From IMG/VR virus record IMGVR_UViG_3300018469_000009, positions 1-22,738 of that record: DNA of 22,738 bases; one strand, written 5' to 3'. Shown in pieces: positions 1 to 22,164 of this stretch (positions are counted from its first letter, which is position 1; each line of letters opens with the position of its first letter). The stretch comes from a virus. Both the position numbers and the translations under genes were made by a program. The notes under the pieces were generated by a model. It ran no database searches and had not been told where the DNA came from. It was given only the letters and a program-made list of their open reading frames with translations.

Positions 1-120
1 GCACACCCAGCCTTGCGCGTTGTACTGCAGCGCCGCGTTCGGGCCGGTGCAGAACGGTGGCGTCCAGGCCTGTGCCAGCGCGCCGGTGGTCGACAGCAGC
101 AGCATGATCAGGATCCACAT
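1..120 (-). CDS. Small secreted protein, 3' part cut by window edge
   Basis: Reading leftward from an ATG at 120, forty codons stay open to the window edge. The N-terminus, MWILIMLLLSTTGALAQAW, is a convincing signal peptide: a hydrophobic core followed by a likely ALA-QA cleavage site. The visible mature part has two cysteines, in FCTG and WVC. Compact exported proteins with an 'FCTG....LQY...GWVC' pattern are common hypothetical proteins in alphaproteobacterial phages, but I do not know a function. The start overlaps the end of the upstream gene by 13 nt, which suggests coupled translation as the last visible gene of the leftward repressor operon. The product probably acts in the periplasm or outside the cell. 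The C-terminus is not visible, so length and fold cannot be judged. Confidence 0.6.
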   Translation of the reverse strand, partial: MWILIMLLLSTTGALAQAWTPPFCTGPNAALQYNAQGWVC

Positions 121-284
121 TTGGCCTTCCTCGCCCGGTATTTGCGCTTCTGCAGCTTGACGTATTCGCGGTTGGCGGCGTGCCATTCCCGCTGGTAGTC
201 GGGATGCAACCTGCGCCAGCGAGCCTGTGCAGCCCGCTGGCGTTTCTTCTTCTCGGCCTCGGTGAGCAGAGGCCGCTTGCGCAT
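108..284 (-). CDS. Small basic hypothetical protein (58 aa)
   Basis: The ATG at 284-282 directly abuts the TAA of the PEP-CTERM-like gene, and the frame ends in TGA at 108. The product begins MRKRPLLTEAEKKKRQRAAQ and is very rich in Lys and Arg, with the pattern ARWRRLHPDYQREW...REY..LQKRKYRARK. Short basic helical proteins with repeated 'R.WR..HP.Y' and 'RKYRAR' patterns are frequent in phage genomes and may bind nucleic acid, but that is inference from composition only. It is the fourth gene of the leftward operon and overlaps the next secreted protein by 13 nt. It has no membrane segment and no recognisable catalytic motif. I recognise no named family. Confidence 0.55.
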   Translation of the reverse strand: MRKRPLLTEAEKKKRQRAAQARWRRLHPDYQREWHAANREYVKLQKRKYRARKAKCGS

Positions 285-1025
285 TTACGCCAAGCGACGA
301 CGACGTAGCCGGTTGAAGCCAAACAATCCCAGAACGCCGGCCAGCAACGCAGGCAAGCCCGCGCCGACCGCTGGTCCCGGCACCGCGAACGGCAGCAGGA
401 AAAACGAGTCCGGCCCGTCGTTGGCGTTGGTGATCCTGGCAAAGAACCCGATGCGATCGCCGGCGTTGATGCCGGCCAGCGAGAAGCCGCTGATGGTATA
501 GTCAGGGAACCCCGTGCCGTTGTTCAGCGGGTCGATGTCGTAGCCGCCCGGTCCCGGCGAGAACACCGCGAGCACGGATTGAGTTGTGAAGTTCAAGAAC
601 CAAAAGCTCTCCAGCACCTGCGTGCTGGTGCCGGCTTGGTTGCTGTCGACACCGACCGAGAACGTCAGATTGCCGCCGAGCGCCTGCAGGAACGGTGAGC
701 CGGCGTTGATGGTGTAGCCAGAGTTCACGCCGCCGAACACGTCGGCACCCAGCGAGCCGCCGACCACGGACGTCGAGAAGTACGGCAGCGTGGTCAAATT
801 CCCCTGATTTCCGAACAGGTTATAGCCGAACCCGCTAGGCTGTTGAGGTTGGTTGGCCCCGCAGATGAGGCATGGCAGGTTGGTGACCTGCTGCCCTGGT
901 GCCGTTGGCGACACCGTCAGCACTGCAGCGCCGGCCAAATTCCAATCGATGCCGCCGAGAATGTCCGCTTTCGCGCCGCTGGCGAGCGCGCAAAGCATGG
1001 CAGATGCCAGCAGTAGCTTCTTCAT
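285..1025 (-). CDS. Exported protein with PEP-CTERM (VPxPA-like) sorting tail
   Basis: The 246-residue product has a signal peptide (MKKLLLASAMLCALASGAKA, likely cleavage after AKA). A Gly/Asn/Thr/Phe-rich body predicted to be beta-structured follows. The C-terminus is tripartite: VPGPAVGAGLPALL, a hydrophobic stretch AGVLGLFGFN, then RLRRRRLA. That is the layout of PEP-CTERM-class sorting signals, in the VPxPA/'PGP..GAGLP' variant common in Bradyrhizobium and relatives, where exosortase-type transpeptidases process exported proteins. The body has a CLIC pair and a segment 'SGFSLAGINAGDRIGFFARITNANDGPDSF' that resembles bodies of chromosomal PEP-CTERM proteins. An AGAGGAG Shine-Dalgarno precedes the ATG at 1025. 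It lies 31 nt after the GcrA-like gene. No exosortase is visible, so processing would rely on the host. Such genes are unusual in phages; this is probably accessory cargo. Confidence 0.75.
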   Translation of the reverse strand: MKKLLLASAMLCALASGAKADILGGIDWNLAGAAVLTVSPTAPGQQVTNLPCLICGANQPQQPSGFGYNLFGNQGNLTTLPYFSTSVVGGSLGADVFGGVNSGYTINAGSPFLQALGGNLTFSVGVDSNQAGTSTQVLESFWFLNFTTQSVLAVFSPGPGGYDIDPLNNGTGFPDYTISGFSLAGINAGDRIGFFARITNANDGPDSFFLLPFAVPGPAVGAGLPALLAGVLGLFGFNRLRRRRLA

Positions 1026-1056: not shown

Positions 1057-1512
1057 TCACGATAGCACCTTTAGCGACGGGCAGGACCGCACCGCGTGCA
1101 CCCAGCAGTACGAGCTGCTGCCGTGCCTGGGCTCGCCGCAGAACAGGAACGGCGCGCGGTCGCCCTCCGGCCACCGGCAGTCGTTCGGCTCGAGCTGCTC
1201 GAGCGGCACCCGCCCGGCCGACGGTCGTGACATCGGCCTGAACCGCGGCGTCAGCCGGATCTTGGCCACGTAGGGTTTTGGCTTGCGGTTCTTGCGGCCG
1301 GCGTACGAGCGCGGCGGCTGGCGCTTCGGCACCCCGGCGTGCCGGCCGTGCCCGATGCAGGCGTTCTTGGTCAGCGTGATCTTGAACTCCAGCGACAGCC
1401 GCTGCGCGATCGCGGTGTAGCTCAGCTTGGGGTCGATCCTCAGCAGCTCGTGGAAGCGCGCGTCGAGCTGCGGCGTCCTGCGCCAGATCCCGGTGGTGGC
1501 GTTGGTCTTCAT
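1057..1512 (-). CDS. gcrA: GcrA-family transcriptional regulator
   Basis: The 151-residue product carries both GcrA signatures. Residues 31-63 (SYTAIAQRLS...LTKNACIGHGRHAGVPKR) match the family's N-terminal helix-turn-helix, normally written '..IA..LG..T+NAVIGK.HRLGL'. Residues 104-140 (LEQLEPNDCRWPEGD...FLFCG....SSSYCWVHA) match the C-terminal block with C112, WP114-115, C125, C136 and H139. In Caulobacter, GcrA binds sigma-70 RNA polymerase and activates promoters carrying CcrM-methylated GANTC sites. The start at 1512 gives a 4-nt ATGA overlap with the upstream repressor, so both are probably cotranslated. The middle (residues 64-100) is a basic Pro-rich linker. The N-terminus lacks the usual 'MSWT.ERV..L..LW' opening and reads IWRRTPQLDARFHELL instead, so it is a divergent phage version. 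Its target promoters are unknown. Confidence 0.85.
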   Translation of the reverse strand: MKTNATTGIWRRTPQLDARFHELLRIDPKLSYTAIAQRLSLEFKITLTKNACIGHGRHAGVPKRQPPRSYAGRKNRKPKPYVAKIRLTPRFRPMSRPSAGRVPLEQLEPNDCRWPEGDRAPFLFCGEPRHGSSSYCWVHAVRSCPSLKVLS

Positions 1513-1730
1513 CGCTTGCGCCTCGGCTTGGGCCGCATCGCCCACAGATCGTCGCGGACATCGAGGCCCATCTTCTTGATGCGGGATCGCAGGACATCGG
1601 CGGTCGCCGCCGGCAGCTTACCCTTGCGCCAGTTGCTGACCGCGCTGGGGGTCGAGCCGGTCAGGGCGGCGACCTTCTGGTTGCCGCCCAGCACGTCGAT
1701 CAGGATCCGGGTCGAGGTAATTGTGGACAT
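1509..1730 (-). CDS. Cro/YdaS-like phage repressor (73 aa)
   Basis: The product has one helix-turn-helix: residues 12-38, DVLGGNQKVAALTGSTPSAVSNWRKGK, with the recognition helix near SAVSNWR. The segment KMGLDVRDDLWAM and a basic tail PKPRRKR follow. This pattern (VLGGN..VA.LTG....V..W.......P......I...G) is shared by small Cro-like regulators of alphaproteobacterial prophages. The start at 1730 is chosen because GGAGG precedes it, and an upstream extension would run through the tandem operators. It is the first gene of the leftward operon and faces the rightward small-gene block, the classical position of a lytic/lysogenic switch regulator. Direct autoregulation is inferred from the dyads at 1743-1774. 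Whether it acts as maintenance repressor or Cro is not decided by sequence. The presence of such a gene hints at a temperate phage. Confidence 0.78.
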   Translation of the reverse strand: MSTITSTRILIDVLGGNQKVAALTGSTPSAVSNWRKGKLPAATADVLRSRIKKMGLDVRDDLWAMRPKPRRKR

Positions 1731-16431: not shown

Positions 16432-16914
16432 TCAGTACAGCCCCTGCCCTGGCACTGGTGGCAACGGCAGCTGGGTGCCTGGGACCTGCCCGAGCTGCGG
16501 CGGCTGGCCGCCGACCACGCCCGGCACCGGCGGCACCGGCGGCAGCGGCGCGCCGCCCATCTGCGGCGGCGGTGCCTGCGGCGGTCCGACCGTGGGCTGG
16601 GCGATCGAGCCCGGCGGTGGCGCAAACATCTGTCCTGGGCCTCGCGCGGGGCCGCCACCCGGCATTGCGGTCGGCATTGCGCCCGCCATGCCGGGAGCCG
16701 GCGGCGCGGCGGTCGGAGGCATCGGGCTGCTCATGCCCGGCATCCCAGGCATGCCCGGCGGTGCAGCGACGCCGGCGGGGACGATCGGCGACTGCGTCGG
16801 CGCGCCGGCACCGCTGCCCGGCATCGCGGTGCGCGGCGGCGGGTTCTGCACATTCATCAGCGCCTGCGTGATCTGGTTGCGCATACGGTCTGCGCCGTAG
16901 CTCGGGACTGGCAT
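16432..16914 (-). CDS. Pro/Gly/Met-rich low-complexity virion-operon protein (160 aa)
   Basis: The ATG at 16914 gives a 1-nt TGATG overlap with the GNAT-like gene; a GTG three bases upstream is an alternative. After a short helical N-terminus (MPVPSYGADRMRNQITQALMNVQN) the rest is low-complexity, with stretches such as PGMPGMPGMSSPMPPTAAPP, PGGGPARGPGQMFAPPP and PPLPPVPPVPG. No strict Gly-X-Y collagen repeat is kept. Such a chain would be disordered or form polyproline helices, useful as a flexible spacer in the injection apparatus (inference). The start of the next gene follows its TGA by one base. The opposite strand shows long open frames only because of the GC-rich repeats. Confidence 0.62.
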   Translation of the reverse strand: MPVPSYGADRMRNQITQALMNVQNPPPRTAMPGSGAGAPTQSPIVPAGVAAPPGMPGMPGMSSPMPPTAAPPAPGMAGAMPTAMPGGGPARGPGQMFAPPPGSIAQPTVGPPQAPPPQMGGAPLPPVPPVPGVVGGQPPQLGQVPGTQLPLPPVPGQGLY

Positions 16915-17399
16915 CACGCGGCCTCCATCATGGTGGCAGCCTCAGGCAGATGATGCTTGAGGCGCTTGTTGAAGCGATTGTTGGCCCAGTCCTCGACCGT
17001 CAACGTGCACAGCACGCCGTCGCGGTCGCGGCCGAACATGCGAGGCACTTTGATGAACGCGTAGTCGTAGGCCGCCAGCATCCCCAGCAGCTCCTCGTTG
17101 TCGGCCGGCGTGCGCTGCCAGACCATCTGGCACCCGCACGTCACGAACGGGTACTGATACATCCGCGCGATGGTGCCGCGCGTCAGCCAGCGCTTGTCGA
17201 CCGCCGCGCCGTTGATCTCGATGGTCGCGGAGAGCGGATCGTAGTTCGCGTACACCAGCCCGGCGATCAGCTTGCCGTCCTCGTCGATCACACCGATCGC
17301 GCGCGCGCCAGGACCGAACGAGCGGCCGCCGACGTGCGGGATCATCGCCGAGACAAAATCGGCGACGACGTCGTGGTGATCGTAGACGTATCGCAGCAT
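16914..17399 (-). CDS. GNAT-like acetyltransferase of the virion operon (161 aa)
   Basis: The start at 17399 follows the upstream stop by 3 nt. The order of elements fits a GNAT fold. An N-terminal helix (DVVADFVSAMIPHVGG) comes first, then paired strands AIGVIDEDGKLIAGLVYANYDPLSATIEINGA. Next comes a helix-loop segment RWLTRGTIARMYQYPFVTCGCQMVW where acetyl-CoA would bind, then QRTPADNEELLGMLAAYDYAFIKVPRMFGRDRDGVLCTL. Phage proteins of this type recur between head and tail genes of short-tailed phages and are annotated as acetyltransferases; substrates are unknown. The usual R/Q-x-x-G-x-G/A loop is not clearly kept (RGTIARM is the closest), so catalysis is open. Confidence 0.65.
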   Translation of the reverse strand: MLRYVYDHHDVVADFVSAMIPHVGGRSFGPGARAIGVIDEDGKLIAGLVYANYDPLSATIEINGAAVDKRWLTRGTIARMYQYPFVTCGCQMVWQRTPADNEELLGMLAAYDYAFIKVPRMFGRDRDGVLCTLTVEDWANNRFNKRLKHHLPEAATMMEAA

Positions 17400-21141: not shown

Positions 21142-22164
21142 TTACGCTGCCGGGTTGCTGTCGTAGAAACGCCAGTTGAACTGCGGATTGACCATCGTGA
21201 GCTCGCCCATCCACCCTATGAACTGGGCAACCGCGTCCTTATCAATGGGCATCTGCCCATCGCCTTCGAACACGCGATCGAAGTTGCGGTTTGGATGGTA
21301 GCGGATGCGCAGGCTGTCGGTGTTCAAGCCGAACGTGGTGTTGGCCGGCATGTTTGATCCAATGCCGCCGTCGAGCACGATCTCGGCCCGCTTGCCGCCG
21401 CCGACATACTCGACCGACGAGAAGCCTAGCTTCGCCATCGAAGTCTCGTTGGTCTGGCGCTGGATCGCCACCGCGGCCGCGTCGTAGGCCGCGTAGTGCT
21501 CCGGCGACATGATCAACAGATCCGCGTAGTCCTTGCCGCGGCTCTGCTTGGTCATCACGTAGTTCAGCATCGGCCGGATCGTGGTCGCGCTGACTTGCGT
21601 GCCCAGGGCGACCGCCATCGATTGCGCGTCATAGGTCTTGGTCTGCCAGATCGTGGCAGTGGCGCGATCGATGCCGCCGTAGATCCCGGTGTTGGTGACG
21701 ACCGGCACCGCGGTGGCAAGGCCGGTGAGCTGCTTGCCGCCGTTGGCGGTGCCGTCACCGTACAGCGCGGCGTCCATGACGTCTTCGAGCGCGCGCTCTG
21801 CCGCGTCGATGTATGCGTCGTAGACATCCATCAGCTGGTTGTCGCCCTCGTTGTTGAGGATCTCCTGCATACTGAGAATGACAGGCACCACGACCATCTT
21901 GGGGTCGAAGTAAGCGTCGTTGAACAGATCGATCGCCGGGTTCAGCAGCTGATCGTAGCCGCTGTACCATTGCGCGACCTGCTTGCCGATCTGCAGGGTC
22001 TGGCGGATACGCGGACCAGAGTAGGTCTGCCACAAGCCTTTGCGCTTGAGCACTGCAAGCAGCGCGTTGTTGTTGGAGACGAGATCCTGATAGCCCGAGG
22101 ACCGCGTCTCAAGCGACATCGACAGTATCTGCTGATACTGGGACAGTGGTGCGATATTGGGCAT
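21142..22164 (-). CDS. Major capsid protein (340 aa)
   Basis: GGAGGGG precedes the ATG at 22164. The product has the order of an HK97-fold capsid protein. An N-terminal helix is MPNIAPLSQYQQILSMSLET followed by RSSGYQDLVSNNNALLAVLKRKG. An E-loop-like strand pair is RIRQTLQIGKQVAQWYSGYDQLLNPAIDLFNDAYFDPKMVVVPVILSMQEILNNEGDNQLMDVYDAYIDAAERALEDVMDAALYGDG. The P-domain-like part has ADLLIMSPEHYAAYDAAAVAIQRQ and IVLDGGIGSNMPANTTFGLNTDSLRI. The 'G......L.....D.F..A.FD.K......V.S..E.L.NEG...' and 'ALYGDGT....QLTGL' blocks are shared by capsid proteins of rhizobial and Burkholderia short-tailed phages. It follows the scaffold-like gene and precedes the adaptor genes. Confidence 0.85.
   Translation of the reverse strand: MPNIAPLSQYQQILSMSLETRSSGYQDLVSNNNALLAVLKRKGLWQTYSGPRIRQTLQIGKQVAQWYSGYDQLLNPAIDLFNDAYFDPKMVVVPVILSMQEILNNEGDNQLMDVYDAYIDAAERALEDVMDAALYGDGTANGGKQLTGLATAVPVVTNTGIYGGIDRATATIWQTKTYDAQSMAVALGTQVSATTIRPMLNYVMTKQSRGKDYADLLIMSPEHYAAYDAAAVAIQRQTNETSMAKLGFSSVEYVGGGKRAEIVLDGGIGSNMPANTTFGLNTDSLRIRYHPNRNFDRVFEGDGQMPIDKDAVAQFIGWMGELTMVNPQFNWRFYDSNPAA

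Follow-up and report, generated by a model that had tools for sequence, protein, structure and literature searches.

The closest described system is the PEP-CTERM/exosortase (EpsH) system, in which a substrate has an N-terminal signal peptide and terminates in a PxP motif, a helix and a basic end (PMC1569441). The known substrates are cellular proteins. The exosortase substrates of characterised systems attach EPS to the cell surface, and floc or biofilm formation depends on them (PMC12188702; PMC9850573). The LPXTG/sortase route of Gram-positive bacteria follows a shared logic, with a signal peptide, a C-terminal motif-helix-basic tail and a dedicated transpeptidase, but its enzymes and envelope differ from the case described here and the likeness is one of analogy only.

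Among phage proteins, lambda Lom and Bor and T5 Llp are surface or membrane proteins involved in lysogenic conversion or superinfection exclusion. P22 SieA is a phage-encoded membrane protein for superinfection exclusion (PMC10883804). Like the protein described here, all of these are exported envelope proteins encoded by phage accessory genes, with a possible effect on the infected cell; they use lipoprotein, outer-membrane or inner-membrane routes, whereas the present protein has an exosortase-type tail. To our knowledge, no lysogenic-conversion or superinfection-exclusion protein of the Lom/Bor/Llp/SieA kind carries such a tail, and no report of a phage-encoded PEP-CTERM protein was found in the open-access literature, subscription papers being outside that search.

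The DNA analysed here (the window), IMG/VR virus record IMGVR_UViG_3300018469_000009, is 22.7 kb long (22,738 nt) and bears phage genes for a major head protein, tail proteins and endolysin. The protein of interest, P0001 (hereafter F), is the product of the ORF at 285–1025 on the minus strand. F and the relevant features of the window are as follows.

1–120, minus strand: small secreted protein (cluster 23), 5' part, cut by the contig start; it adjoins F also in L008, L011, L042, L048 and L055
108–284, minus strand: 58-aa basic protein, its start codon abutting the F stop; the order F, 58-aa protein, secreted protein is also found in L008 and L011
285–1025, minus strand: F, predicted exported phage protein with an exosortase-type C-terminal tail, 246 aa, ATG start
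288–383, minus strand: VPGP-type tripartite tail of F, residues 215–246, with the VPGPAVGAGLP motif, a helix (224–245) and the RLRRRR cluster
399–965, minus strand: beta-rich body of F, residues 21–209, with invariant CxxCG.NQPQ (C52, C55), NNGTGFPD and DGPDSFF motifs
966–1025, minus strand: signal peptide of F, residues 1–20, MKKLLLASAMLCALASGAKA, assigned from the sequence and from the hydrophobic-core test in the family
1057–1512, minus strand: GcrA-domain protein (PF07750, E 1.7e-10), with a likely ATG at 1512 that overlaps the HTH stop; a longer GTG ORF extends to 1545
1509–1730, minus strand: HTH (Cro/carph-isopro-like) regulator, 73 aa (NF046037, 3.2e-07, below its cut-off; phrog_8008, 2.9e-06)
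21142–22164, minus strand: major head protein (phrog_9953, 3.9e-80; 61.6% identity to Rhizobium phage RHph_I3_18), which marks the contig as phage

The GcrA-domain gene overlaps the HTH gene and is followed after 31 bp by F, whose ATG is preceded by a Shine-Dalgarno-like AGAGGAG. The stop codon of F and the start codon of the following gene are contiguous (TAAATG), and translation of F and the 58-aa gene is therefore probably coupled. The tight leftward operon of F with a repressor (HTH) and GcrA, proposed in the first-pass annotation, is thus present in the window. It is not a trait of the F family, and was rejected as such from the gene context of the relatives: in L002 and L004, the nearest ones, F sits elsewhere, so that the association with the HTH/GcrA pair is not conserved. 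The phage-borne pair itself (window 1057–1730) recurs away from F in L002, L004 and L079.

The N-terminus of F, MKKLLLASAMLCALASGAKA|D, is a standard signal peptide with an AxA site, and the C-terminus, FAVPGPAVGAGLPALLAGVLGLFGFNRLRRRRLA, comprises VPGPAVGAGLP, a hydrophobic helix and RLRRRR; both ends had been noted for this ORF in the earlier annotation and are confirmed from the sequence. Scored with a tail profile built without P0001 and one close relative, the P0001 tail reaches 47.3 bits, against 15.0 for the best among 20,000 shuffles of it. The hydrophobic-signal test is passed by 79 of the 81 family proteins, with an AxA-like site in 78, and the test for a PxP motif, helix and basic cluster likewise by 79. 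The two tail-test failures (L034 and L035) both carry VPEPATWAMM and were missed solely through the slicing rule. The PxP-type motif is PGP in the window protein and PEP, PLP or PIP in the homologues.

The family alignment contains 38 invariant columns, and conservation is higher in the body (mean pairwise column identity 0.58) than in the tail (0.45). Comparison of the body with L002 and L004, the nearest relatives with estimable dS, gives dN/dS values of 0.08–0.14, by which measure the F gene is under purifying selection. The AlphaFold2 model calculated with the family alignment has a confidently predicted beta-rich body and a C-terminal helix spanning residues 224–245 (mean pLDDT 82.7, pTM 0.74). 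Foldseek returned no significant match for this fold in the PDB or BFVD at E 1e-3, and no biochemical function can therefore be read from it; CBM35-like fold matches were set aside as insignificant. A search of solved structures by sequence gave no match at E 1e-3. P0001 matched no Pfam or NCBIfam family at E 1 and no PHROG at E 0.1, and a PHROG scan of 35 family members was also negative.

Relatives of F were found on 197 IMG/VR stretches; a second scan, for which a divergent query was used, gave 216, so that at least 216 viral contigs carry a homologue. The carriers are uncultured soil and sediment phage fragments, numbering in the hundreds, and every complete relative that was read has a signal peptide-like start, a body with the invariant CxxCG, an NNGTGFPD-like motif and DGPDSFF, and a tripartite tail. 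Gene context was read in 80 loci, mostly on fragmentary contigs. In about 14 of these F lies directly between the terminase large subunit gene (phrog_9, 2.4e-115) and genes for a fused head maturation protease/major head protein (phrog_617, 1.5e-107) and portal, and in others the neighbouring gene is one for an endolysin, a RecT- or Erf-like protein, a ParB-like protein or an integrase. For at least 52 of the 80 loci, the stretch read contains a hallmark gene from an annotated cluster, encoding a terminase, head protein, portal, endolysin, annealing protein/exonuclease or integrase. The description of F as phage-borne holds: it is a genuine phage gene, surrounded by other genes of phages on many independent viral contigs. 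Different phages with unrelated head genes share F, which indicates that it moves as an accessory gene, and tyrosine integrases on some of the contigs make at least some carriers look temperate.

A tblastn search of cultured phages and plasmids gave no match at E 1. A motif scan of 84,980 species genomes, derived from the family alignment, returned 27 stretches and no relative, with the proviso that strict motifs may miss diverged copies. None of the head-module prophages at the 77 genome loci that were checked carries F. We cannot explain the absence of F from the prophages found, given the temperate appearance of some carriers, other than by poor sampling of hosts.

Five exosortase-type tail types occur among the 81 family rows, namely VPGP (55), VPLPA (12), PEPxxWA (6), VPEP-GS (4) and PxPA (4). 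At least 11 changes of tail type are needed on a tree built from the bodies only, compared with a shuffled mean of 25. The two parts of the protein also diverge separately: L009 matches F at 76% in the body and 37% in the tail, and L005 at 67% and 83%, respectively. At the DNA level, the most similar partner switches at the body/tail boundary, with the F body nearest to L002 and the tail and two downstream genes nearest to L008. In L034 and L035 the sequence reads VPGPTVGA-VPEPATWAMMLLGF, that is, the stub of an old tail followed by a new one (in L034, VPGPTVGA-VPEPATWAMM). Since replacement of tail for tail is otherwise hard to explain, the F tail appears to work as a sorting signal; when F enters phages whose hosts use a different sorting subtype, its tail would be exchanged and the body retained.

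Homologues of F match PEPxxWA-CTERM (8.7e-11), VPLPA-CTERM (1.5e-6), TIGR02595 (4.4e-5) and PF07589 (1.6e-7), and L034 lies above two curated cut-offs (NF035944, 38.9 against 35; TIGR02595, 22.8 against 16). Some relatives thus pass the PEPxxWA-CTERM and TIGR02595 cut-offs of the EpsH system, whereas the VPGP tail of the window passes no model. The match to a PEP-CTERM model anticipated for the window protein is accordingly seen in its homologues and not in P0001 itself, for which no Pfam or NCBIfam family was found at E 1. Assignment of the tail to the exosortase type nevertheless stands, as homologous bodies carry recognised sorting tails, and the objection that no homologue has such a tail clearly fails.

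The family profile was run over 385 alphaproteobacterial genomes and identified three distant proteins, all of them cellular and with PEP-CTERM or VPLPA-type tails, which the stricter motif scan had not revealed. A body-only profile, from which the tails had been removed, matched L162 (5e-12) and L163 (1e-8), whose genomes both encode an exosortase, and more weakly the third cellular protein (0.002). As sensitive profiles thus detect the body of F in distant PEP-CTERM proteins of cells, the F gene was probably captured from a host; on the simplest reading of the sequences, phages acquired a cellular gene for such a protein long ago. L162 and L163 also have weak profile matches (5e-4 and 7e-5) to PepA (NF033554), the floc-forming PEP-CTERM protein of Zoogloea, over part of the body and the tail; these amount to at most ~23 bits against a curated cut-off of 80 bits and do not establish homology between the bodies of F and PepA.

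F differs from the known exosortase substrates in being encoded by a phage that lacks the enzyme. No EpsH-type exosortase (PF09721) was found on 45 phage records, nor any match to a divergent exosortase profile on 28 phage records including the window, and the enzyme of the host would therefore have to act on F. Five alphaproteobacterial genomes (G467, G172, G282, G482 and G433) encode a divergent 7-TM exosortase-like protein and, at a distance of ~1 kb or less, a small secreted protein whose tail is VPGP-like. These pairs, each consisting of a VPGP-tailed secreted protein and the adjacent divergent 7-TM protein, are located at:

L190:1315–2419
L165:1333–2551
L167:1306–2557
L187:308–1737
L172:1306–3086

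The divergent enzyme has multiple TM segments and invariant C188, N231xxR234 and H249xxxG253 (A5). Of the three motifs of EpsH (PMC1569441), NxxR and HxxxG are thus present in the divergent enzyme, and the third, Cys-x-Gly in EpsH, is replaced by Cys-x-Ser. Among these proteins the TIGR04178 cut-off is passed by L190 only, and most fall below present models. That VPGP-like tails occur close to a 7-TM enzyme with Cys, NxxR and HxxxG motifs in each of five genomes speaks for VPGP as a signal recognised by an exosortase, and the pair is possibly an undescribed exosortase subsystem. On the other side, three models found no exosortase in G608 (six VPGP tails) or G610 (two). With contig numbers above 390 and 950, the two assemblies look fragmented; the gap is nevertheless a genuine one and counts against VPGP as an exosortase signal.

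Relatives of the head module are mostly found in Alphaproteobacteria. An EpsH-type exosortase exceeds the cut-off in 3 of 32 alphaproteobacterial genomes with head-module prophages (Lichenifustis, Sphingomonas and Sphingopyxis), and none was found in the tested genomes of Rhizobium, Sinorhizobium, Mesorhizobium, Bosea, Devosia and Microvirga. The rhizobial host presumed in the first-pass annotation is unsupported, and the likeness of the head protein to that of a Rhizobium phage was not accepted as an argument for it, since most of the rhizobia tested are without an exosortase.

We consider it likely that F is a phage accessory gene whose exported product serves as a substrate of the host exosortase, or of a close functional equivalent, and that the displayed body would alter the encounters of the infected or lysogenic cell. 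From the signal peptide, the conserved body, the tripartite tail, the phage location, the exchange of tail types and the lack of an exosortase on the phage contigs, all read from the sequences, we infer the following course. F would be exported by the Sec pathway and held by its tail in the inner membrane, transiently, until the host exosortase recognises the PxP motif and the body is released or transferred towards the outer surface or EPS. There it may influence the contacts of the infected or lysogenic cell with other phages, with its own EPS or with its neighbours. Our guess is that F most probably serves superinfection exclusion or the control of adsorption, and that a biofilm change as an end in itself is less likely. 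The late position of the gene in head operons and its early or regulatory position in other phages both suit a protein that changes the cell surface.

The tail could conceivably act as a plain C-terminal membrane anchor, by which F would stay in the inner membrane with a periplasmic body that, for example, blocks the entry of superinfecting DNA or helps lysis, and no exosortase would be involved. VPGP tails in cellular genomes without a detectable exosortase, and the position of F beside endolysin genes at several loci, are consistent with such an anchor. It would, however, have no need for the PxP motifs of recognised sorting subtypes, nor would modular replacement by other sorting tails be expected, and we regard this explanation as unlikely. 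F might also be a decoy that saturates the host exosortase, so that the PEP-CTERM proteins of the host itself (receptors or EPS anchors) fail to reach the surface, as a tail that matches host sorting subtypes on a phage that brings no enzyme could suggest. Such a decoy needs the tail alone, yet it is the body that is more conserved, with its invariant columns and strong purifying selection, which makes a pure decoy the less likely and, in our estimate, quite improbable.

The location between terminase and head protein/protease genes in ~14 loci might suggest a virion component such as a head decoration. This is very improbable, as the signal peptide and C-terminal helix would send F out of the cytoplasm, and other phages have the gene among early recombination, lysis or integrase genes. 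That positions 1–1056 are host chromosome joined to the phage by misassembly, a possibility raised in the first-pass annotation, would agree with the distant cellular relatives of the body. It is excluded, with hardly any reservation, by the number of homologous viral contigs and by the head-operon loci; moreover, the order of F, the 58-aa protein and the secreted protein is repeated on phage contigs L008 and L011, and the motif scan of species genomes found no close relative.

A phage-carried putative substrate of exosortase type, belonging to a protein family with exchangeable tails, is new. If F is indeed sorted by host exosortases, phages use a Gram-negative counterpart of the LPXTG/sortase route, and whether a cell is infected could affect the anchoring of its EPS, flocculation and the adsorption of phages in soils and sediments. 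A broader proposal, which may equally well prove right or wrong, is that alphaproteobacterial (perhaps other) phages repeatedly exploit host exosortases for surface display of a conserved protein of their own, changing only the tail by host, and that VPGPxxGAGLP, the commonest tail, is the mark of an as yet undescribed exosortase subsystem of Alphaproteobacteria that has a divergent enzyme of its own. The host-wise tail swaps would then be a natural experiment on the pairing of motif and exosortase in a poorly understood system, and the phage tails would point to a VPGP-type enzyme missed by present models.

Several further observations were made on the genes mentioned above. The VPGP-tailed secreted proteins of G608 and G610 (L191, L193–L196, L198 and L199) have very similar tails. 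Directly behind F, a small secreted protein (cluster 14) and a two-helix membrane protein (cluster 2), neither with a Pfam match, recur at L041:3298–3552, L054:4232–4432 and relatives. The L008 version of the small secreted protein (compare window 1–284) contains a collagen-like GPAGPAGPPGPAG. An acyl-CoA N-acyltransferase (phrog_4470) is encoded inside the structural operon of the window at 16914–17399, and Rhizobium phage RHph_I3_18 has an N-acyltransferase at a similar place.
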